Of a DNA stretch of 58,149 nucleotides, positions 3,368 to 55,408 are shown one piece after another (the stretch's first letter is position 1; each line of letters opens with the position of its first letter). The position numbers and the translations under genes are program-made. The notes beneath the pieces were generated by a model. The model was not told the DNA's origin. It searched no databases and was given only the letters and a program-made list of their open reading frames with translations. Origin of the DNA: Actinomycetota bacterium (GTDB lineage: Bacteria > Actinomycetota > Acidimicrobiia > Acidimicrobiales > AC-14); contig JBFMCT010000020.1 in assembly GCA_040754375.1 (NCBI GenBank), forward strand, positions 1-58,149. The letters are read 5' to 3'.

Positions 3368-3934
3368 TCACGCACGGGGGACCAGCCCTCGCTGGCGCCC
3401 GAACTCGTACAACCGCTTCTGCAGCGCCCTTCTTCCGCGATGGAGGCGAGACATGACCGTCCCGATCGGAATATCCAAGATCTCGGCGATCTCCTTGTAG
3501 GAGAACCCCTCGACGTCGCCCAGCAGCACCGCCAGGCGGAACTGCTCGGGCAGGGCCTCGATGGCCTCCTTGACCTCCGCCTCGGTGAACTGGTCGAGCA
3601 CCTCGTCCTCGGCGCTCCGGCCCGCCGACGCCCCTTCCAGGCCACCCAGCTTGCGGTAGAGGTAGAGGTTCTCCAGGTCGTCGATGTCGCTCTCCTCGGG
3701 GCGCCGCTTGCGCGCCCTGTAGGAGTTGATGAACGTGTTGGTGAGGATCCGGTAGAGCCACGCCTTGAGGTTGGTCCCCTCCTGGAAGCCCCCGAACCCC
3801 CGGTAGGCCTTCAGGTAGGTCTCCTGCACCAGGTCCTCGGCGTCGGAGGGGTTGCGGGTCATACGCAGGGCGGCCGTGTAGAGGGAGCCCATGTGCTCCA
3901 TGGCCAGCTCTTCGAAGCGCTCTCGGTCCGCCAT
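3368..3934 (-). CDS. sigR: ECF sigma factor, SigR/SigH family (thiol-oxidative stress)
   Basis: The 188-residue sigma factor has region 2 (about residues 1-85, with [17 protein letters not shown] and a [21 protein letters not shown] block very close to SigR/SigH) and region 4 (about 120-180, with [19 protein letters not shown] and a helix-turn-helix ending [16 protein letters not shown]). This family directs thiol-homeostasis genes under disulfide stress. It is followed 11 bases later by the RsrA-like anti-sigma gene. The start ATG has GAAGG four bases upstream. The opposite strand carries a set of small genes beginning at 4050, so 3935-4049 must hold divergent promoters; I could not identify a clear autoregulatory GGAAT-GTT promoter. 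Confidence 0.92.
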
Positions 3935-22223: not shown

Positions 22224-22742
22224 GTGGACCGCACCCCCGATCGCACCCCCGACCGGGACCCCGACTTCGAGGCGCTGTTCGAGTCGACCTTCCCCATGGC
22301 CCAGCGGGTCGCCTACCGCATCGTGGGCGACGCCTTCGTGGCCGAGGACCTAGCGGCTGAAGCCTTCGTGCGGCTCTACGCCCGCTGGGGCCGGCTGCGC
22401 GGAGAACCCGGTCGGGTCGGCTGGGTGCTGAGGGTGACGGCCAACCTGGCCATCGACACCGTCCGGCGAAAGCGACCGGTCCCCGAGGCCGGCTTCGCGG
22501 CCGACATGGAGGAAGCGGTGGTGCTGCGCTCGGCATTGGCGGCCGCCCTGTCCGCCCTGCCCGCCCGCCAGCGGGCCGTGGTCGTCCTGCGCTACCTGGC
22601 CGACCAGAGCGAGGACGACGTGGCCCGCCTGCTGGGCATCTCGGCCGGGACGGTCAAGGCCCACGCCCACCGGGCCACCCAGCGGCTCCGCCGCCAGTTC
22701 CACGACGACGAGGAGATCTCCATTGCCCTCCATCGAGCCTGA
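22224..22742 (+). CDS. ECF sigma factor (SigE-like)
   Basis: The 172-residue product contains sigma-70 region 2 (FESTFPMAQRVAYRIVGDAFVAEDLAAEAFVRLYARW, about 15-50) and region 4 (ALSALPARQRAVVVLRYLADQ, then the helix-turn-helix DVARLLGISAGTVKAHAHRATQRLR). The likely start is GTG 22224 after a GTAGGGG stretch; upstream codons in this frame do not look conserved. The downstream gene starts inside its last 20 bases. That gene encodes a membrane protein with an extracytoplasmic domain rather than a canonical zinc-finger anti-sigma factor. Confidence 0.85.
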   Translation: MDRTPDRTPDRDPDFEALFESTFPMAQRVAYRIVGDAFVAEDLAAEAFVRLYARWGRLRGEPGRVGWVLRVTANLAIDTVRRKRPVPEAGFAADMEEAVVLRSALAAALSALPARQRAVVVLRYLADQSEDDVARLLGISAGTVKAHAHRATQRLRRQFHDDEEISIALHRA

Positions 22743-39445: not shown

Positions 39446-40720
39446 TCAGCGTAGGCGTCCGGACGCCCCCGAGCCGGCCCCGACGTGTTCGGGCTCGGGC
39501 CCGAGCGGCTCCAGCTCGGCGATGTCGAACGGGCCCGGGCCGCCCGCGGCGGCCCCGCCCCCGGTCACCACCGCGGCCGCCCCCGTGGCCAAGCGCCGGT
39601 TGAGCCAGCGCAGGTGCAGGGCCGTCACGCAGAGGACCGACCCGGCGGCCACGGGTACGAGCAGGGCGCGACGGTTGGAGTCGTCGCCGCCCTCGGCCCC
39701 GAGCTCGCCCGTACCGGTGGACGATGCCGCCCTTCCCTGCTGGCGTCCCTCGATGGGCGAGGACGCCGGCGCCGACGTGGACGGGAAGGGCAGGTTGGCG
39801 TCGAAGCCGGTGTCGGGCAGGGTCGGGGGCGTGGGGGCCGGGAGCCGGGGTACGTCCACCGGTGACTGCTGCAGGAGCGAGCCCAAGTCGAGCTCGGCCG
39901 CCCCTCCGTCTTGGAGGCCACCTCCGGGAACGGCCGTCGTGGGAGGGGCGCTGGTCCCGCCGGGCACGCTGGAGGTGGTGGTCGTGGGCAGGGCCGGCAG
40001 GTTGGCCACCACGGCCGCCGAGCGGGTCTGGAGGGCCTCGCGGGGATCGTCGGGGACGGGCCCGCGGCGCACCGAAGCCACCTGGTATTGCACGGCCCCC
40101 CCGAGCTGGGCCGCACCCTGGTCGGTGAACGTCGTGTTCACGGTGGTGTGCAGGCCCACGAAGCCCCGCGAGTCGCTGTTGCGGTAGATGGCGTAACCCA
40201 GGAAGTCGGGGCTCATGGCCGGCGCCGTCCACGAGAGCTTGACGGTGCGGTCGGGCTGGGGCTCGGCCTTGAGGCCGGTCGGGGGCGCCGGGGGGACGGC
40301 CACCACGATGTCGCGCGTCGCCGACCCGTCGACTCGGAGCCCGCTGAGCAGGACGTGACCCACGGCCACGACCTCGACGGTGTAGGGACCGTTGTGGTCG
40401 AGTACTCCCGACGTGTAGCTGAACGGGACGGTCGGGTCGGACGAGCACGGGTTGCAGGCGTCACCGCTCTCGACCATGCCCCCGCCCCGGTAGAAGCGCA
40501 CGCTCACCCGCCCTACCGACGCGAACAGCGTGGCCGCGCTGGCCTCGCCGGTGACGGTCACCCTCCCCGAGGACGTGAACCACTCCCCAGGTTCGGGGGT
40601 GGCGATGTCCACCGACAGGCCGGCAGCCGCCCCCGCCACCGGGACCGGGCCCAAGGCCATCACCAACGACACGGCTAGGCCGGCGACCAGCGGCAGGGCC
40701 CGGCGTCTACGGCCGGTCAT
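39446..40720 (-). CDS. Secreted FN3-domain protein with Pro/Thr stalk and C-terminal membrane helix
   Basis: The 424-residue protein has a Sec signal peptide (about 1-32, ending AGAAAG), an N-terminal beta-domain (about 35-140), a fibronectin type III domain (about 143-235: PPTGLKAEPQPDRTVKLSWTAP and FLGYAIYRNSD) and a Pro/Thr/Ser-rich stalk (about 245-345). An LPDTG pentapeptide (301-305) lies within the stalk, about 47 residues before a C-terminal helix (352-372), not at the usual position directly before it. Its ATG overlaps the sortase stop, so it is co-translated with the sortase. Confidence 0.78.
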   Translation of the reverse strand: MTGRRRRALPLVAGLAVSLVMALGPVPVAGAAAGLSVDIATPEPGEWFTSSGRVTVTGEASAATLFASVGRVSVRFYRGGGMVESGDACNPCSSDPTVPFSYTSGVLDHNGPYTVEVVAVGHVLLSGLRVDGSATRDIVVAVPPAPPTGLKAEPQPDRTVKLSWTAPAMSPDFLGYAIYRNSDSRGFVGLHTTVNTTFTDQGAAQLGGAVQYQVASVRRGPVPDDPREALQTRSAAVVANLPALPTTTTSSVPGGTSAPPTTAVPGGGLQDGGAAELDLGSLLQQSPVDVPRLPAPTPPTLPDTGFDANLPFPSTSAPASSPIEGRQQGRAASSTGTGELGAEGGDDSNRRALLVPVAAGSVLCVTALHLRWLNRRLATGAAAVVTGGGAAAGGPGPFDIAELEPLGPEPEHVGAGSGASGRLR

Positions 40721-41325
40721 GCCGCCGGGAGGTCTCTGACCCAGGTGGCTTGCACGATCAGACGCTGGGCGGCCGACCCACGGGGGTGGCAGGTGGTCAG
40801 CGTGAGGGTGCGCTCGGCCGTCGGGTCGAGGACCGACATGTCCGTGGGTTCGACGATGAAGGGGGCCTTGGTGAGCTGGTAGACGCACCCGCCGATGGGG
40901 GTGGTCAGCTCGATGGTGTCACCCACCTTGAGCCGGTCGATGTTGCCGAACGGCTTGCCGTAGGTCGTGCGGTGCCCGGCGATAGCCACGTTGCCGGCCT
41001 CGCACGGCAGCGGGGTCTGGGGGTAGTGGCCGGCACCCGCCCGCAGTGCGCTGGGCGTGATGCCCTCGACGACCACCGTGTCGACGTCGAGGGCGGGGAT
41101 ACGTACCCGGGTCAGGCTGTCACCGGTCTCGACGGCCCGCTCCCGGTAGGCCTGCACCAACTCGGGACTGGCCAGCTGCTTGGTGAGCTGGCTCTGCAGA
41201 CGGGACTGCCACATGTTGGTGTAGAAGGGGTAGCCCACCAGGGCGAGCCCTCCTAAGAGCAGCAGGACCGAGAGCACCGAGATGCTGCGGCGGACGGCGG
41301 GCTTGGTGCGCAGGAGCTCTAGCAC
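40717..41325 (-). CDS. Class E-type sortase
   Basis: The 202-residue transpeptidase has an N-terminal membrane anchor (about 15-36), the catalytic His in IAGHRTTYGKPF (H118), the catalytic Cys in TLTTCHPRGSA (C179) and the catalytic Arg (R188 in AAQRLIVQ). The TLTTCHPRG pattern is typical of actinobacterial class E sortases, which recognise LAxTG. It would attach surface proteins to the cell wall. The gene lies between its probable substrate (upstream, ending LAKTG) and an FN3 protein. Confidence 0.9.
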   Translation of the reverse strand: MLELLRTKPAVRRSISVLSVLLLLGGLALVGYPFYTNMWQSRLQSQLTKQLASPELVQAYRERAVETGDSLTRVRIPALDVDTVVVEGITPSALRAGAGHYPQTPLPCEAGNVAIAGHRTTYGKPFGNIDRLKVGDTIELTTPIGGCVYQLTKAPFIVEPTDMSVLDPTAERTLTLTTCHPRGSAAQRLIVQATWVRDLPAA

Positions 41326-41427
41326 TGGGGCCGCCCACGGTTACGACGTTGGGTCATGGCTGCCTCAAGGCTACCGAAGGTCGGGCTGGGTGATCGTCAG
41401 CGACGGGGGGCGGGTGAAGGCGGAGCC

Positions 41428-47669: not shown

Positions 47670-48605
47670 TCAGACCGCCAGCAGGTCTCGGGCGCCGGTG
47701 TCGCTCGAAGGGTGGCGCAGCTTCGACATGGCCCTTGCCTCGATCTGGCGGATGCGCTCACGGGTCAGGTTGAAATGCTCGCCCACCTCTTCGAGGGTGC
47801 GGGGCTCGCCCCGGTCGAGGCCGAAGCGCAGGCGCAGGATCTCCCGCTCGCGCTCGTCGAGGGGCCCCAGCAGCTTGGCGATCTCGTCGGGCAGCAGGGC
47901 GGTGGCTGCCACCTCGAAGGGCGATTCGGCCGACCGGTCCTCGACCACGTCGCCCAGCTCGGCGTCCCCGTCCTCACGCAGGGGCTCCGAGAGCGAGAGA
48001 GGCTCGGCCGCGAACCGCAGCGCCTCGGTGACCTTGTCTTCGGGCATCTCGACCTCGGCCGAGAGCTCCGAAAGGGTGGCCGGACGGCCCAGCTTGAGCT
48101 CCAGGCGGGCGCGCGCCTTCTGGAGGCGAGCAAGGGTGTCGCCCGCGTGTACCGGCAGACGGATGGTCCGGCCCGTGTTGGCGATCCCCCGGGTGATGGC
48201 CTGGCGGATCCACCAGGTGGCATAGGTGGAGAACTTGAAGCCCTTGCGCCAGTCGAACTTCTCGACGGCGTGCATGAGCCCGAGGTTGCCCTCCTGGATG
48301 AGGTCCAGCAGGGGAAGTCCCGACGCCTGGTACTTCTTGGCGATGGAGACGACCAGCCGGAGGTTGGACTTCACGAACGTCGACTGGGCGAGCTGGCCCT
48401 CGTTGGCCACCCGGCGTAGCTCACGGCGCTTGCCCTGCGACAGGCCGCTCTCGGTATCTATCTGGGTGCGCGCTTCATTGCCGGCCTCGATGGCCTTGGC
48501 CAACCGGACCTCGTCGTCCTTGGTGAGCAGTGGGTACTGCCCGATGTCGGTGAGGTACAGGCGGACGAGGTCTTCCTCGTCCCGTTCCACGCGCTCTTTG
48601 GGCAA
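47670..48605 (-). CDS. Principal/group 2 sigma-70 factor (RpoD-like)
   Basis: The 311-residue protein has region 1.2 (DLVRLYLTDIGQYPLLT), region 2 (VKSNLRLVVSIAKKYQ and LPLLDLIQEGNLGLMHAVEKFDWRKGFKFSTYATWWIRQAI), region 3 (RLPVHAGDTLARL, GRPATLSEL) and region 4 (LDEREREILRLRFGLDRGEPRTLEEVGEHFNLTRERIRQIEARAM). It lacks the long acidic N-terminus of most RpoD proteins, so I favour a group 2 factor. The region between it and the next gene (48606-48743) holds a leader without further genes. Confidence 0.93.
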   Translation of the reverse strand: MPKERVERDEEDLVRLYLTDIGQYPLLTKDDEVRLAKAIEAGNEARTQIDTESGLSQGKRRELRRVANEGQLAQSTFVKSNLRLVVSIAKKYQASGLPLLDLIQEGNLGLMHAVEKFDWRKGFKFSTYATWWIRQAITRGIANTGRTIRLPVHAGDTLARLQKARARLELKLGRPATLSELSAEVEMPEDKVTEALRFAAEPLSLSEPLREDGDAELGDVVEDRSAESPFEVAATALLPDEIAKLLGPLDEREREILRLRFGLDRGEPRTLEEVGEHFNLTRERIRQIEARAMSKLRHPSSDTGARDLLAV

Positions 48606-49292: not shown

Positions 49293-50996
49293 TCAGCCGC
49301 GGTAGCGGTTGGTGATGGGCAGGCGGCGGTCCTTGCCGAAGGCCTTGGGGGTGACCCGCACGCCCGGGGGGGCCTGGCGCCGCTTGTACTCGGCCTTGTC
49401 GACCAGGTCGACCACCCGGCGCACCAGGTCGGCGTCGAACCCGGCCCGCACCAGGTCGGCGGCCGTGGAATCGCCTTCGATATAGGCCTCCAGCACGGGG
49501 TCGAGCTGTTCGTAGGGCGGCAGGGACTGGTCGTCGCGCTGGTCGGGCCGCAGTTCGGCCGTGGGCGGCTTGGCCAGCACGTTGGCGGGGATGGCCGCCG
49601 CCTCCCGGGCCAGGGCGTAGACGAGGGTCTTGGGCACGTCCTTGATCACCGCGAACCCGCCCGCCAGGTCCCCGTACAGCGTGGAGAACCCGACCGCCAT
49701 CTCGCTCTTGTTGCCCGTGGCCAGCACCATCCAGCCGAACTTGTTGGACAGGGCCATCAGCAGCAGGCCCCGGGCACGGGCCTGGACGTTCTCCTCGGTC
49801 AGGTCGGGCGCCAGGCCCTCGAACGAGGGGCCCAGCTGGGCCAGCGCGGCGGCGTGCAGGGGCTCGATGGGCACGACCCGGCTCTCGATCCCCAAGTTGG
49901 CGGCCAGCTCCAGGGCATCGGCGGTCGAGGTGTCGCTGGTGAAACGCGACGGCATCAGCACCCCGTGCACGTGCTCGGGCCCGAGGGCCTCGGCCGCGAT
50001 GGCGGCCACCAGCGACGAGTCGACGCCACCGGACAGGCCGATCACCACGTCGGTGAAGCCGTTCTTGCGGACGTAGTCGCGGGTGCCCACCACCAGCGCC
50101 CGGTGGACCTCGGCCACAGGGGCCAGCACCGGGGCGAGCACCGCCGGCGCCGCAGGACCGAAGGCGGCGTCGGCTGCCCGCGGGGGGCTCACCAGCACCT
50201 CGTCGAGCGGCTGGGCCGGGGCCCGGCCCCGAGGGTCGAGCAGGCGCTTGCGGAAGACGGGACGCACGTCGAGGTCGACCACCATCGTGTGCTCGGCGAA
50301 CTGGGGGGCCCGGGCCACGATCTCGCCGATGGACGACACGGCCAGCGATGCCCCGTCGAACACCAGCTCGTCCTGGCCACCCACGGCGTTCACGTAGAGC
50401 AGCTCGCACGACGCGTCGGCCGCCCGGGTGGCCAGCATGCGCTCGCGCTCGGGCAAGCGGCCCGCGTAATAAGGGGACGCGCTGAGGTTGACCACCAGCT
50501 CGGCGCCACCGGCGGCCTGCTCGGCCATAGGCCCGGCGGGAGCCCACACGTCCTCGCAGATCGTCACCCCGACCCGCACCCCGGCCACCACGAAGAGCAC
50601 GAGCGGGCCGGAGGCGGGCGTGAAGTAGCGCTGCTCGTCGAACACCGAGTAGTTCGGCAGCAGGCGCTTGCGGTAGACACCCCGCACCGTCCCCGAGGCG
50701 CACACGGCCGCCGCGTTGTAGAGGTCACGGCGGGCGTCGACGAACCCCACCACGGCGGCACACCGGCCCGTACGCGACGCCAGCTTCTCCAGGGCGACCA
50801 GGTTGTCGGCCACGAAGCCGGGCTTGAGCAGGAGGTCCTCGGGCGGGTAACCGCAGATGGCCAGCTCGGGGAACACGGCCAGGTCGGCGCCCTCGGCCTC
50901 GGCCTCCGACAGGGCGCCCAGCACCCGCTCGACGTTGCCGTCGAGGTCGCCGACGACGGTGTCGATCTGGCAGGCGGCAACCCGCAGTCGGGCCAG
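49293..50996 (-). CDS. nadE: Glutamine-dependent NAD+ synthetase
   Basis: The protein has an N-terminal amidase (nitrilase-like) domain starting LRVAACQIDTVVGDLDGNV with VFPELAICGYPPEDLLLKPGF, and a C-terminal synthetase domain with the P-loop VIGLSGGVDSSLVAAIA. It makes NAD from deamido-NAD with Gln. The only in-frame ATG (51062) lies eight bases from the divergent sigma gene, leaving no room for promoters. A CTG at 50996 is preceded by AGGAGG at five bases, exactly before the conserved RLRVAACQID start, so I place the start there. That is unusual and depends on the ribosome binding site argument. Confidence 0.9.
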   Translation of the reverse strand: MARLRVAACQIDTVVGDLDGNVERVLGALSEAEAEGADLAVFPELAICGYPPEDLLLKPGFVADNLVALEKLASRTGRCAAVVGFVDARRDLYNAAAVCASGTVRGVYRKRLLPNYSVFDEQRYFTPASGPLVLFVVAGVRVGVTICEDVWAPAGPMAEQAAGGAELVVNLSASPYYAGRLPERERMLATRAADASCELLYVNAVGGQDELVFDGASLAVSSIGEIVARAPQFAEHTMVVDLDVRPVFRKRLLDPRGRAPAQPLDEVLVSPPRAADAAFGPAAPAVLAPVLAPVAEVHRALVVGTRDYVRKNGFTDVVIGLSGGVDSSLVAAIAAEALGPEHVHGVLMPSRFTSDTSTADALELAANLGIESRVVPIEPLHAAALAQLGPSFEGLAPDLTEENVQARARGLLLMALSNKFGWMVLATGNKSEMAVGFSTLYGDLAGGFAVIKDVPKTLVYALAREAAAIPANVLAKPPTAELRPDQRDDQSLPPYEQLDPVLEAYIEGDSTAADLVRAGFDADLVRRVVDLVDKAEYKRRQAPPGVRVTPKAFGKDRRLPITNRYRG

Positions 50997-51070
50997 TTGT
51001 CCTCCTCGCGATCGGGGCCAGTCGTGCGTGACGAGCCTACCGATGGTGAAAAGGCGTAGCATTTACCTCG

Positions 51071-52600
51071 ATGGACGATGCCCAGCTCGTCCAGCGGGCA
51101 GCTACGGGTGATACGGCGGCTCTCGCTCGTGTCTACGACCGCTACGCCGGCCGACTCCACGACTATCTGTGGTGGGTCCTGCAGGACCGCGACCAAGCGG
51201 ACGACGCCCTCTACGACACCTTCATAGAGGCGGCCGCCCGGGCCGATCAGCTGGTCGAGCCGGAACGGCTCCGCACCTGGCTGTTCGCCATCGCCAGCCG
51301 CCAGGCCCTGGCCGGTCGCCACCGTCCGGCCCCGGCCTCGTCTACGCCGGCCCCGCCCACGGGGGCCGGGGCGAGCTGGGGCGAGCTGGTGGAGGTGGTA
51401 CGAGCCGTCGGCGAGCAGCTCCCGGCCCGGGACCGGGCGATCTTGGACCTGCGGTGCCGCCAAGGCTTTGACGACGACGACCTGGCCGACATCCTCGGCG
51501 CCTCGCCCAGCCAGGCCGGGCCCATGGCCGACCGGCTGACCCACGAGGCCGAGGAGGCGTTGGCCGAGAACGTGGTGGCCTACCTGGGCCGCCAGGACTG
51601 CGACGAGCTCGCCGGCGTGCTGGTGGGCGCGGGGGCGATCCTGACCGCCTCCGAACGGCGCCTCGTCTCCGAGCACGCGTGGGACTGCCCGACGTGCGGC
51701 CCCCGGCGCCGGCGCCACCTCGCGGCCGGCACCCTCATGCGAGTGGGGCCCGCGGGGCCGCCCTCGCCTGAGATCGCCGGCCAGGTGCTCGAAGGAGCCG
51801 AGCTGGCGTCCCACCGCGGCCGGCCTTGGCCGGCCCGCCGGGGCGGGTTCCCGCCACCGCTGCCCATGGCCGGGCCTCGGCGCTGGCCCGTGGCCGTGGC
51901 TGCCGCCCTGGTGCTCGTTCTCGGGGCCGGCGCCCTGATCGCCACCCGCGACGACGGGGGCGGCGAGCGGGTGGCGGCCGTGGGCACGACGGTCGCCGTC
52001 CCGACGACGACGTCGCGCGCCACGACGACGGTGGCCCCCACCACGACGATGCCCGAAGGCGATGAGGGTGAGCCCGATGGCTCGACCACCACCGGCCGTC
52101 CCATAGTGGTCGCGGGCACCGGGGGAGCCGGGACGGGCGGCACCGGTGGCGGTGGCGGTGGCCCCGGGACCGGCGGGGGCGGGACCGGAGGGGGCAACAC
52201 GGGCACCACCGCGACGACGGTCGCCACCACCACGACCACGACGACCACGGTGCCGCCCGACGTCGACGGGCCGTCGCTCACCGGCCTGTCCGTCAGCCCG
52301 TCGACCGTGCGCCCCAATGGCACGTGCACCAACGCCGACCCCATGCAGACCACCGTCACGGTGACGGCCAGCGATCCGTCCGGTGTGAGCTCGGTCACGG
52401 CCATGTTGTCGACCGACCCAGAGTCGCTGAGGACGATGACCGCTTCCGGCGCGGGCAGCTACTCGGCGACCCTCGGACCGTTCAAGGCCTTGAACGCCCA
52501 CCTCCAGGAGATCGCCTTACCCGTGCTGGTCTCGGCCACCGACGGTGCCGGCAACGAATCGATCACCAGCGTCAGGCTGACCCTTCGCTGCACAACCTGA
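51071..52600 (+). CDS. ECF sigma factor fused to zinc-finger/TM/Thr-Gly-rich stalk/Ig-like domain
   Basis: The 509-residue protein has sigma region 2 (about 1-80: VQRAATGDTAALARVYDRYAGRLHDYLWW) and region 4 (about 105-165: LPARDRAILDLRCRQGFDDDDLADILGAS). Then a ZAS-like zinc motif H202-x3-C206-x2-C209 (HAWDCPTC), a cytoplasmic linker, one transmembrane helix (about 272-292), a Thr/Gly/Pro-rich stalk (about 305-395) and a C-terminal Ig-like/bacterial-adhesin-like domain (about 398-509). A sigma factor and its regulator in one polypeptide, tethered to the membrane, would need proteolysis or a conformational signal to act. ECF groups with fused zinc-finger and TM regions are described (for example ECF52-like); the Ig-like end is what I cannot match. 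Divergent from nadE. Confidence 0.85.
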   Translation: MDDAQLVQRAATGDTAALARVYDRYAGRLHDYLWWVLQDRDQADDALYDTFIEAAARADQLVEPERLRTWLFAIASRQALAGRHRPAPASSTPAPPTGAGASWGELVEVVRAVGEQLPARDRAILDLRCRQGFDDDDLADILGASPSQAGPMADRLTHEAEEALAENVVAYLGRQDCDELAGVLVGAGAILTASERRLVSEHAWDCPTCGPRRRRHLAAGTLMRVGPAGPPSPEIAGQVLEGAELASHRGRPWPARRGGFPPPLPMAGPRRWPVAVAAALVLVLGAGALIATRDDGGGERVAAVGTTVAVPTTTSRATTTVAPTTTMPEGDEGEPDGSTTTGRPIVVAGTGGAGTGGTGGGGGGPGTGGGGTGGGNTGTTATTVATTTTTTTTVPPDVDGPSLTGLSVSPSTVRPNGTCTNADPMQTTVTVTASDPSGVSSVTAMLSTDPESLRTMTASGAGSYSATLGPFKALNAHLQEIALPVLVSATDGAGNESITSVRLTLRCTT

Positions 52601-52642: not shown

Positions 52643-55408
52643 GTGGCCGCCACCGCCGTCCAGGAGGCGATAGACCGCTCGGCGGCACCCGCCGTGGTGG
52701 CCGTTGCCCTGCAACGGCTGGAGGAGGCCCACCAGGGGCTGGCGGACCGGCTGGTGGCCGAGCCCGGTCTGTGCCGGGCCCTGGTGGCCGTCACGGCCGC
52801 CAGCCGGTCCCTGACCGAGCTGCTGGTCGCCGACCCGGCGGCTGTCGAGGTCATCGCGAACCTCGACGACCGGCGGCCCATGGGGACGATCTCGGCCAGC
52901 GCCGACCTGCGGCGCTGGAAGGCACTCGAACTGCTGCGGGTGGCGGCCCGTGACCTGCTGGGCATGGACGACCTTCCCCAGGTCGGGCGTGACCTGGCGG
53001 CGCTGGCGTCCGACGCCCTGCAGGCGGCCTACGAGCTCGCCGGCTCACCCCCGCTGGCCGTGATCGGGATGGGAAAGCTCGGGGGCTCCGAGCTCAACTA
53101 CTCCAGCGACATCGACGTGATGTTCGTGGCCCGGCCCGGGGACGAGGACACCGACCGGGCGGCGCGTGCCCTGATGGCCGCCGCCCGGGAGGCGTCGTTC
53201 CGGGTCGACGCCAACCTCCGGCCCGAGGGGCGGGACGGCCCCCTGACCCGCACCCTGGGTTCGTTCGAGGCCTACTGGGAACGGTGGGCGCAGACGTGGG
53301 AGTTCCAGGCCCTCATCAAGGCCCGGCCGGTGGCCGGGGACCCCGAGCTGGGCCAGGCGTTCCTGGCCAGCGCCCAGGAACGCCTTTGGGGCCGGCCGTT
53401 CACGGCCGACGACCTGCGGGCGGTGAGGACCATGAAGGCCCGGTCGGAGGCTGAGCTGGCCCGCAAGGGCCTGACCGACCGGGAGATCAAGCGGGGCCGG
53501 GGCGGCATCCGAGATATCGAGTTCGCCGTGCAACTGCTGCAACTGGTCCACGGGGGCCACGACGAGTCCCTCCGTTCGCCCACCACGCTCGACGCCCTGG
53601 GCGAACTGGGCCGTTCGGGCTATGTGGACGCGGCCGACGCCCGATCGCTGAACGAGGCCTACCACCTGCTGCGGACCGTCGAGCACCGCCTCCAGCTCGA
53701 ACGCGAGCAGCAGGTGCACTCCCTGCCCACCGACAAGGGGGCGCAGGACCGGCTGGCCCGCGTCCTGGGTTATCGCGACACGGTCGAGGCCACGGCCGGC
53801 GAACTGTTGTCCAGCTACCTGCGCCGGCTGCAGGCCGGGGTGCGCTCCATCCACGAGCACCTGTTCTTCCGGCCGCTGCTCGACGCCCTCTCGGCCCACC
53901 CGGCGGGCACCGTGCCCGCTCCGGCCATGCCCGCCGAGGCGGTGGTCGACCGGCTGGCGGCGTTCGGGTTCACCGACGCGGCCCGCACGCGCGCCGCCCT
54001 CGTCGAGCTGACGGGGGGGCTGACCCGTTCGTCGCGCCTGATGCAGCAACTGATGCCCCTGCTGCTCGACTGGCTCTCGGTGTCACCCGACCCCGACCTC
54101 GGGCTGCTCGGGCTGCGCAAGCTGGCCTCGGGGCGCCAGCGCACCACCGAACTGGCCGTCGCGTTCCGCGACTCGCCCGAGTCGGCCCGGCGCCTGTGCG
54201 TCCTGCTCGGCACCAGCGCCCGGCTGTCGGCCACCCTCGAACGCGAGCCCGACCTGATCCCCGCCCTCAGCACTCCCGAGGCCCTCGAGCCCCGGACGTC
54301 GGAGGCCATGGTGGCCGGGGCCACCGCGTCGTTCACGTGGCGCTCCGAGCTCGAGGACCGCCAGCGGGGCCTACAGAGGTTCCGCCGCCGGGAGGAACTA
54401 CGGATCGCGGCGGCCGACGTCCTCGGGCTGGCCGGAGACCTACCGGTGACCGAAGGCCCAGCAGCGCCCCGAGGTAGCCCGACGAACGGGGACGATCCGG
54501 TGGTCGTCACCGCCCGCCAGCTCACGGCGCTGGCCGAGGCCAGCCTCACTGCGGCCCTGGCCGCCGTGGGGCCGGCCGTCCCCTTCGCGGTGATAGCCAT
54601 GGGCCGCTTCGGTGGCGCCGAGCTGTCCTACGCCAGCGACCTCGACGTGCTGTTCGTCTACGAGGGGTCGACACCCGAGGAGTTCGCGGTGGCCGAACGG
54701 GCGGCCGAGTCGCTCCTGCGGTTCGTCTCCGGGCCCACGCCCGCCACCCAGGTCTACCCCCTCGACCTCGGCCTGCGTCCCGAAGGCAAGGACGGCCCGC
54801 TGGCCCGCAGCCTGGCCGGCTACCACCAGTACTACGAGCGCTGGGCGCAGACCTGGGAACTGCAGGCGCTCACCCGCGCCCGGTTCGTAGCCGGGGACGC
54901 CGACCTCGGCCGCCGGTTCCTCGACCTGGTCGAGCCCTACGTATGGCGCGACCCGTTCCCCGAGGCCGACGTGCGCGAGATCCGGAGGATGAAGGCCCGG
55001 GTCGAGCGTGAACGGATCCCCCCGGGCGAGGACCCCCAGTTCCACCTCAAGCTGGGCCGGGGTTCACTGTCGGACATCGAGTGGACGGCCCAGCTCCTCC
55101 AACTCCGCCACCGCACCCAGGCCACGGGGACGATGGCCGCCCTCGACCGCCTGCGAGACGTCGGCGTGCTGGCCGCCGACGACCACGAGGTGCTGGCTGA
55201 CGCCTACCGCTTCTGCGAGCGGGCCCGCAACCGCTGGTTCCTCGTCAAGGGATCACCCGACGACTCCCTCCCCCGCCGGCCCGAGCAGATGGCCCGCCTG
55301 GCCCGCTCCCTCGACACCACGCCCCACGACCTCCGCGAGAACTACCGCCGCGTCACCCGCCGGGCCCGCCACGTCGTCGAGCGCCTCTTCTACGGCAAGG
55401 ACGAGTAA
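52643..55408 (+). CDS. glnE: Glutamine synthetase adenylyltransferase/deadenylylase
   Basis: The 921-residue protein has two nucleotidyltransferase domains with GSELNYSSDIDVMFV (about 152-166) and GAELSYASDLDVLFVY (about 655-670), preceded by GMGKLG and AMGRFG. The domain order is deadenylylase-like N-terminal half, then the adenylyltransferase C-terminal half (ending RRARHVVERLFYGKDE), as in GlnE. It adjusts the activity of glutamine synthetase in response to nitrogen. The start is GTG 52643. The sigma fusion gene ends 42 bases upstream. No glnA or glnB in the window. Confidence 0.95.
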   Translation: MAATAVQEAIDRSAAPAVVAVALQRLEEAHQGLADRLVAEPGLCRALVAVTAASRSLTELLVADPAAVEVIANLDDRRPMGTISASADLRRWKALELLRVAARDLLGMDDLPQVGRDLAALASDALQAAYELAGSPPLAVIGMGKLGGSELNYSSDIDVMFVARPGDEDTDRAARALMAAAREASFRVDANLRPEGRDGPLTRTLGSFEAYWERWAQTWEFQALIKARPVAGDPELGQAFLASAQERLWGRPFTADDLRAVRTMKARSEAELARKGLTDREIKRGRGGIRDIEFAVQLLQLVHGGHDESLRSPTTLDALGELGRSGYVDAADARSLNEAYHLLRTVEHRLQLEREQQVHSLPTDKGAQDRLARVLGYRDTVEATAGELLSSYLRRLQAGVRSIHEHLFFRPLLDALSAHPAGTVPAPAMPAEAVVDRLAAFGFTDAARTRAALVELTGGLTRSSRLMQQLMPLLLDWLSVSPDPDLGLLGLRKLASGRQRTTELAVAFRDSPESARRLCVLLGTSARLSATLEREPDLIPALSTPEALEPRTSEAMVAGATASFTWRSELEDRQRGLQRFRRREELRIAAADVLGLAGDLPVTEGPAAPRGSPTNGDDPVVVTARQLTALAEASLTAALAAVGPAVPFAVIAMGRFGGAELSYASDLDVLFVYEGSTPEEFAVAERAAESLLRFVSGPTPATQVYPLDLGLRPEGKDGPLARSLAGYHQYYERWAQTWELQALTRARFVAGDADLGRRFLDLVEPYVWRDPFPEADVREIRRMKARVERERIPPGEDPQFHLKLGRGSLSDIEWTAQLLQLRHRTQATGTMAALDRLRDVGVLAADDHEVLADAYRFCERARNRWFLVKGSPDDSLPRRPEQMARLARSLDTTPHDLRENYRRVTRRARHVVERLFYGKDE

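Follow-up and report, generated by a model that had tools for sequence, protein, structure and literature searches.

The window, the 58,149-nucleotide stretch of actinomycetotal DNA analysed here, carries an open reading frame at positions 51071–52600 of the forward strand that starts with ATG and encodes a single polypeptide of 509 amino acids. It is flanked by nadE (NAD synthase; 49293–51062, reverse strand), its divergent neighbour, and by the downstream glnE (glutamate-ammonia ligase adenylyltransferase; 52643–55408, forward strand), both assigned by Pfam and synteny. The initial annotation described the product as combining sigma regions 2 and 4, an HxxxCxxC motif, one transmembrane (TM) helix, a stalk and an Ig-like domain, and each of these elements could be located within the frame. 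The order sigma2-sigma4-ZAS-TM-stalk-Ig-like, which is also the layout of the relatives, is almost certainly the architecture of this protein. Sigma region 2 (residues 1–82; 51071–51316, forward strand as for all parts of the gene) matches Pfam PF04542 with an E-value of 4.5e-5, 0.4 bits under the cut-off; structurally, SigW and other ECF sigmas align with its AF2 model. Sigma region 4 (residues 104–175; 51380–51595), whose HTH is unusually acidic in this copy, gives a weak match to PF08281 (E = 0.016) that is clear in 27 of 41 relatives. Profile and structure agree that regions 2 and 4 are present without region 3, the composition of an ECF sigma factor. The ZAS anti-sigma domain (51599–51697) contains the HxxxCxxC motif at residues 202–209 with a presumed upstream zinc ligand, C177, and an NCBIfam anti-sigma model matches residues 191–319 below its cut-off. 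A single TM helix follows (residues 274–292; 51890–51946; hydropathy 2.51), which the model extends to residues 272–296; since it is basic on its N-terminal side and acidic on its C-terminal side, the protein is predicted to be oriented N-in/C-out. The extracytoplasmic stalk (residues 293–397; 51947–52261) is Thr/Gly-rich as first described, corresponding to a Thr/Pro/Ser/Gly-rich stalk in relatives, but spans about 105 residues rather than about 90. The C-terminal Ig/PKD-like beta-sandwich (residues 398–509; 52262–52597), placed by model, profile and cysteine counts, contains the cysteines C419 and C507, which relatives also conserve.

An assembly frameshift joining two genes, or another fusion artefact, can be ruled out. 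Genome G003 encodes a contiguous homologue of 504 amino acids that is 41% identical over its full length, as well as an orthologue between nadE and glnE, and the same layout recurs in about 110 relatives from all over Actinomycetota, some of which are isolates (Aeromicrobium sp. Root344 and Actinophytocola oryzae, for example). Long fused homologues were found in many genomes by a protein search (148 relatives), and a scan of named genomes added 79 loci, among them isolates of Aeromicrobium, Actinophytocola, Phytoactinopolyspora, Mycolicibacterium and Mycobacterium. All 79 of these loci contain the ZAS motif and nearly all a TM helix; a genome scan with the window protein alone as query returned no relative. 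In two alignments the sequences were too diverse for conserved patterns to emerge. A 41-row alignment left only M1, W70, L117, C177, H202, C206 and C209 invariant, and the last four were invariant again when the cytoplasmic half was aligned in 72 rows; these four are the presumed zinc ligands. R76, considered as a universal DNA contact, was dropped, as the residue is family-specific. For the family as a whole, there is good support for a sigma factor joined covalently to an outside sensor and to its own anti-sigma domain.

The cytoplasmic half, residues 1–300, was modelled with AF2 from 72 sequences (pLDDT 84); the alignments for this and the following model comprised the window and related-loci sequences, with loci from the named-genome scan left out. 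The model was closest to SigW in its complex with RsiW (Foldseek E = 3.7e-4; VIA Z 15.6, rmsd 2.6 over 153 residues), and the next-best matches were CnrH and RpoE, again in anti-sigma complexes. Alignments with ECF sigmas bound to RNA polymerase either covered one domain only or, across the full length, had an rmsd above 20. The crystal structures of SigG1 and SigJ, which lack an anti-sigma partner, also align with the model, and AF2 may default to compact sigma arrangements. On the matches to SigW, CnrH and RpoE the sigma part is predicted to be in an occluded state, and since its domains match anti-sigma-bound SigW, self-inhibition in cis is likely.

The C-terminal region, residues 394–509, was modelled from 34 sequences as an eight-strand beta-sandwich (pLDDT 79), the strand number of an Ig-like fold. 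VIA-align matched this model to collagenase PKD domains with Z of about 10 and an rmsd of 1.7–2.2 over 84–89 residues (PKD domain 4aqo: Z 10.1, rmsd 1.7 over 84 residues), and a profile of the region run against PDB sequences recovered bacterial surface Ig domains and cadherins, with 2yn3 the best at 2.1e-7. Foldseek returned no match to the domain model at E ≤ 0.001, so three lines carry the Ig assignment: predicted topology, Z-scores from VIA and the profile of the sequence; no Pfam Ig family matched the window copy. The proposed Ig-like domain is borne out as a predicted fold, and the term "adhesin-like", also used in the initial annotation, holds as far as this resemblance of fold, which is its sole basis.

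Other members of the family carry other modules in the same outer position. Pfam matches there are of the BACON type in five members, PASTA in three, HYDIN-type Ig in three and Big_13 in one, and some members end in long regions that, judged by eye, resemble beta-propellers. Cysteines beyond the TM helix were counted in 74 complete named relatives: 46 have exactly two and 24 lack them. Members of the Ig-like class mostly space their two cysteines by 75–95 residues, one close to the first strand and the other close to the C-terminus, positions that fit a disulfide outside the cell; the Ig/PKD-like outer domain is, on this pattern, probably disulfide-closed. A second, mycobacterial two-cysteine class has its cysteines 5–7 residues apart near the C-terminus, in place of the Ig-like domain (loci L103, L111, L113, L114, L119, L121, L122, L126, L127, L129, L133 and L135). 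The interchange of two-cysteine Ig-like, BACON, PASTA and propeller modules appears to be new, as we found no description of it in the literature consulted.

Together, these data suggest that the gene product would unite an ECF sigma and its anti-sigma in one polypeptide anchored to the cytoplasmic membrane, in which the adjacent ZAS domain would keep the N-terminal sigma domains inactive in cis. A single helix would span the membrane, and the Thr/Gly-rich stalk would bear the Ig/PKD-like domain through the cell wall, where a surface or cell-wall event would most likely trigger regulated intramembrane proteolysis, freeing the sigma part to bind RNA polymerase. We give a probability of roughly 0.6 to this reading as a whole, namely a tethered, self-inhibited sigma factor with outside sensing and proteolytic release, belonging to an ECF48-like family and present in the window as a fast-evolving duplicate. 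Taken by itself, regulated proteolysis is slightly favoured as the release step, and we infer both it and the ligand class of the outer domain. A search for site-2 proteases elsewhere in the genome, suggested by the initial annotation, did find such genes, and they were also matched in all 14 control genomes; as almost every bacterium has such genes, finding them here is weak evidence that permits cleavage and no more.

The glnE locus was compared in ten genomes of the same bacterial family. The fused sigma gene lies between nadE and glnE in two of them, the window genome and G003, whereas the other eight have nadE directly beside glnE, divergently oriented and without an intervening gene. The G003 orthologue lies in two halves on separate contigs, which share exactly 35 bases at their overlapping ends; in an arrangement matching the window, the first contig carries nadE (78% identical) and an rpoD-like gene (98%), and the second carries glnE (73%). 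In the window, this rpoD-like counterpart, a sigma factor with regions 1.2, 2, 3 and 4 (47670–48605, reverse strand; 98% identical to that of G003), adjoins a stretch in which nadE and glnE are 73–78% identical. The tree places another G003 copy as sister (99/87) to the window/G003 orthologue pair. This pattern fits a duplication placed between two housekeeping genes, and loss from the other genomes could also have produced the distribution. Of the loci examined, only those of the window gene and the G003 orthologue have nadE and glnE as flanks, so these neighbours say little about function, and an operon-based assignment was rejected; they suggest no regulon.

Since the basic promoter-contact surfaces in regions 2.3/2.4 and in the HTH are typical of the family, their depletion in the window copy and its orthologue raises a serious, if less probable, alternative: that the window copy is an eroding duplicate which has kept its fold and membrane sensor but lost promoter recognition, and which does no switching or only titrates core polymerase or protease. 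The net charge of residues 130–165, covering the HTH, is −7 in the window protein and −5 in the orthologue. By comparison, 118 relatives average +0.3 (sd 1.4, minimum −3), and the other ECF sigmas of the window genome range from −1 to +5. Regions 2.3/2.4 have a net charge of +2/+1 versus 5.6 in relatives, although charge alone is no proof that DNA binding is lost. The window/G003 pair also evolves fast, with dN/dS of 0.40 for sigma2, 0.60 for sigma4 and 0.83 for ZAS, compared with about 0.1, 0.1 and 0.2 in most of 20 other family pairs and with 0.22 for nadE and 0.23 for glnE next to it; the next-highest pairs reach 0.36, 0.39 and 0.40, the sigma4 value of 0.39 coming from a pair with a dS of 0.06. 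Presence in two of ten genomes of its bacterial family points the same way. Against erosion, both orthologues retain an open frame and all four zinc ligands, overall dN/dS is still below 1, and sigma2 appears more constrained than sigma4, with a ratio of sigma4 to sigma2 dN/dS of 1.51 (interval 0.90–2.55) that is not a significant difference and, like the other values, comes from a single orthologue pair.

The window copy thus looks young and fast-changing, and promoter binding cannot be assumed from its retained fold and ligands; whether it acts as a promoter-specific sigma factor is, in our estimate, evenly balanced. A paralogue elsewhere in the same genome (G000:C3) is typical of the family and matches the family profile at E = 2.3e-122, compared with 3.8e-84 for the window copy, and as the better-conserved copy it is a stronger candidate for an active switch. 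Of the one-component surface-to-transcription switch originally proposed for this gene, the tethered layout is well supported for the family, but the transcription step is doubtful for the window copy, where basic residues are depleted and evolution is fast.

Two further readings retain the switch and change how it is thrown. Release might be conformational, with binding to or tension on the outer domain shifting the ZAS domain so that the sigma factor acts while still tethered. Because the sigma part is covalently linked, no partner would be lost, and conformational activation has been described for other ECFs with C-terminal extensions (PMC8999054). However, a single helix and a long flexible stalk would be expected to transmit a conformational change poorly, and IutY, which is likewise a fused sigma/anti-sigma, is activated through proteolysis (PMC8999054), so we regard conformational release as unlikely. 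The ZAS domain could instead sense the redox or zinc state of the cytoplasm as the signal, with the outer domain serving only to position the protein. The C-H-C-C ligand set is invariant in the alignments, its spacing is one that we take to resemble that of redox-sensitive ZAS proteins such as RsrA, and an oxidised form of SigW-RsiW has been solved (5wur). RsiW itself, however, has the same ligand type and is controlled by proteolysis, and the outer domains of the family, PASTA, BACON and disulfide-type Ig among them, are diverse yet recurrent, which argues for an extracytoplasmic input and makes an internal signal quite improbable. Least probable of all, the duplicate may have moved off promoter binding to become a membrane sensor that works through another route, such as titrating core polymerase or feeding a protease, in which case the Ig-like domain would have been kept and the acidic HTH would be an adaptation and not decay.

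In loci L079, L080, L085, L086, L087, L090, L092 and L093 a sortase gene, identified through Pfam in two representatives, shares the strand of the family gene at a distance of about 150–550 bases; it directly follows the family gene in L101 and is 1.5 kb downstream of it in L076. An Ilumatobacter-type branch adds seven loci with a sortase 2–3 kb upstream. Since these genomes hold up to ten sortases where counted, such adjacency is unlikely to arise by chance, with the qualification that the loci come from a few lineages and are not independent. We found no earlier description, in the literature consulted, of a recurrent sortase gene beside members of this family, and the association appears to be new. 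Secreted proteins resembling sortase substrates, with a hydrophobic stretch at the C-terminus and a basic tail, are also encoded at L076 and L079. The sortase nearest to the window gene (40720–41340, reverse strand; Pfam) is 10 kb away on the opposite strand, and an open reading frame without a Pfam match adjoins it (39628–40137, reverse strand). The window also encodes two further ECF sigmas of ordinary length without a fused ZAS domain (3413–3904, reverse strand, and about 22275–22475, forward strand).

Upstream of the gene, TAGCAT (51057–51062, forward strand), 8 nt before the start codon, is a candidate −10 box of a leaderless housekeeping-type promoter. A TANNNT motif occurs just upstream of the start in 27 of 120 family genes versus 9.1 expected from shuffles, a threefold enrichment that suggests leaderless transcription from such a promoter. 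A search of the 120 upstream regions for a shared two-box motif or self-recognised promoter yielded only motifs largely confined to close relatives, and autoregulation was not retained as an explanation.

The family presents a conserved sigma/anti-sigma/membrane scaffold with swapped outer modules, a natural set in which to ask how a surface signal reaches RNA polymerase within one polypeptide, and the sortase genes beside some members hint at a connection with the anchoring of surface proteins in certain lineages. Our literature search found no experiment on any member of the clade; as cultured Aeromicrobium and Actinophytocola carry members, the mechanism is directly testable.

The general concept of such a protein is already known. 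ECF48, ECF52 and ECF53 have been grouped as sigmas with a ZAS domain and one or two TM helices (PMC8999054), and the ECF52 protein SCO4117, the only characterised actinobacterial protein of this general layout found in the literature, combines a sigma factor, a zinc finger, a TM helix, a Pro-rich extension and an outside carbohydrate-binding domain, with release proposed to occur by proteolysis or conformational change (PMC5826349, PMC8999054). The idea of a fused sigma factor with its own outside sensor thus has precedent, but the Ig-like and other sensor types were not found described in the literature consulted. ECF52 resembles the window family in placing a sigma factor, zinc finger and TM helix on one chain with a low-complexity extension and an outside domain, but has a Pro-rich extension and an NPCBM domain instead of a Thr/Gly stalk and an Ig-like domain. 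No NPCBM match was obtained in the window protein or in its whole source genome (G000). When 87 sigma domains were placed in a maximum-likelihood tree, the window family formed one clade (100/94), and the ECF52-like proteins, identified through the NPCBM domain, formed another (100/97), so simple ECF52 membership is ruled out by tree and domain content alike. A fused sigma of 719 amino acids encoded outside the window in the same genome (G000:C15:4172–4891, L198), with a ZAS domain, a TM helix and a long Pro-rich tail, groups in the ECF52-like clade.

ECF48 is an actinobacterial sigma group with a C-terminal extension of a zinc finger and one or two TM helices, an architecture that the window family shares, and its reference protein is WP_048473130.1 of Mycolicibacterium chlorophenolicum (PMC8999054). 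The one sigma-ZAS fusion that the family profile found in an M. chlorophenolicum genome (L141) falls inside the window family's clade. As this species supplies the ECF48 reference, the family probably is, or contains, ECF48, an assignment made through the species and the tree. Unlike the window protein, the mycobacterial members have Pro/Thr-rich tails with no evident Ig-like domain.

SigW-RsiW of Bacillus subtilis is the closest parallel in structure, as anti-sigma-bound SigW is the best match to the predicted sigma part. RsiW, a ZAS protein, has a single TM helix and is cleaved stepwise. In this system, however, sigma and anti-sigma are two separate proteins, and there is no Ig-like outer domain. 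IutY (ECF243) of Pseudomonas putida shares the union of a sigma factor and a membrane anti-sigma in one polypeptide, and is activated through cleavage by Prc and RseP (PMC8999054), but is of the iron-starvation type with an outer-membrane receptor and belongs to another ECF group. SigI/RsgI of Clostridium thermocellum resembles the family in having a conserved anti-sigma scaffold that carries varied modules outside the cell, with intramembrane cleavage by RseP (PMC12203970), but sigma and anti-sigma are separate proteins, the sigmas are not ECF, and the outer modules sense substrate for cellulosome genes.
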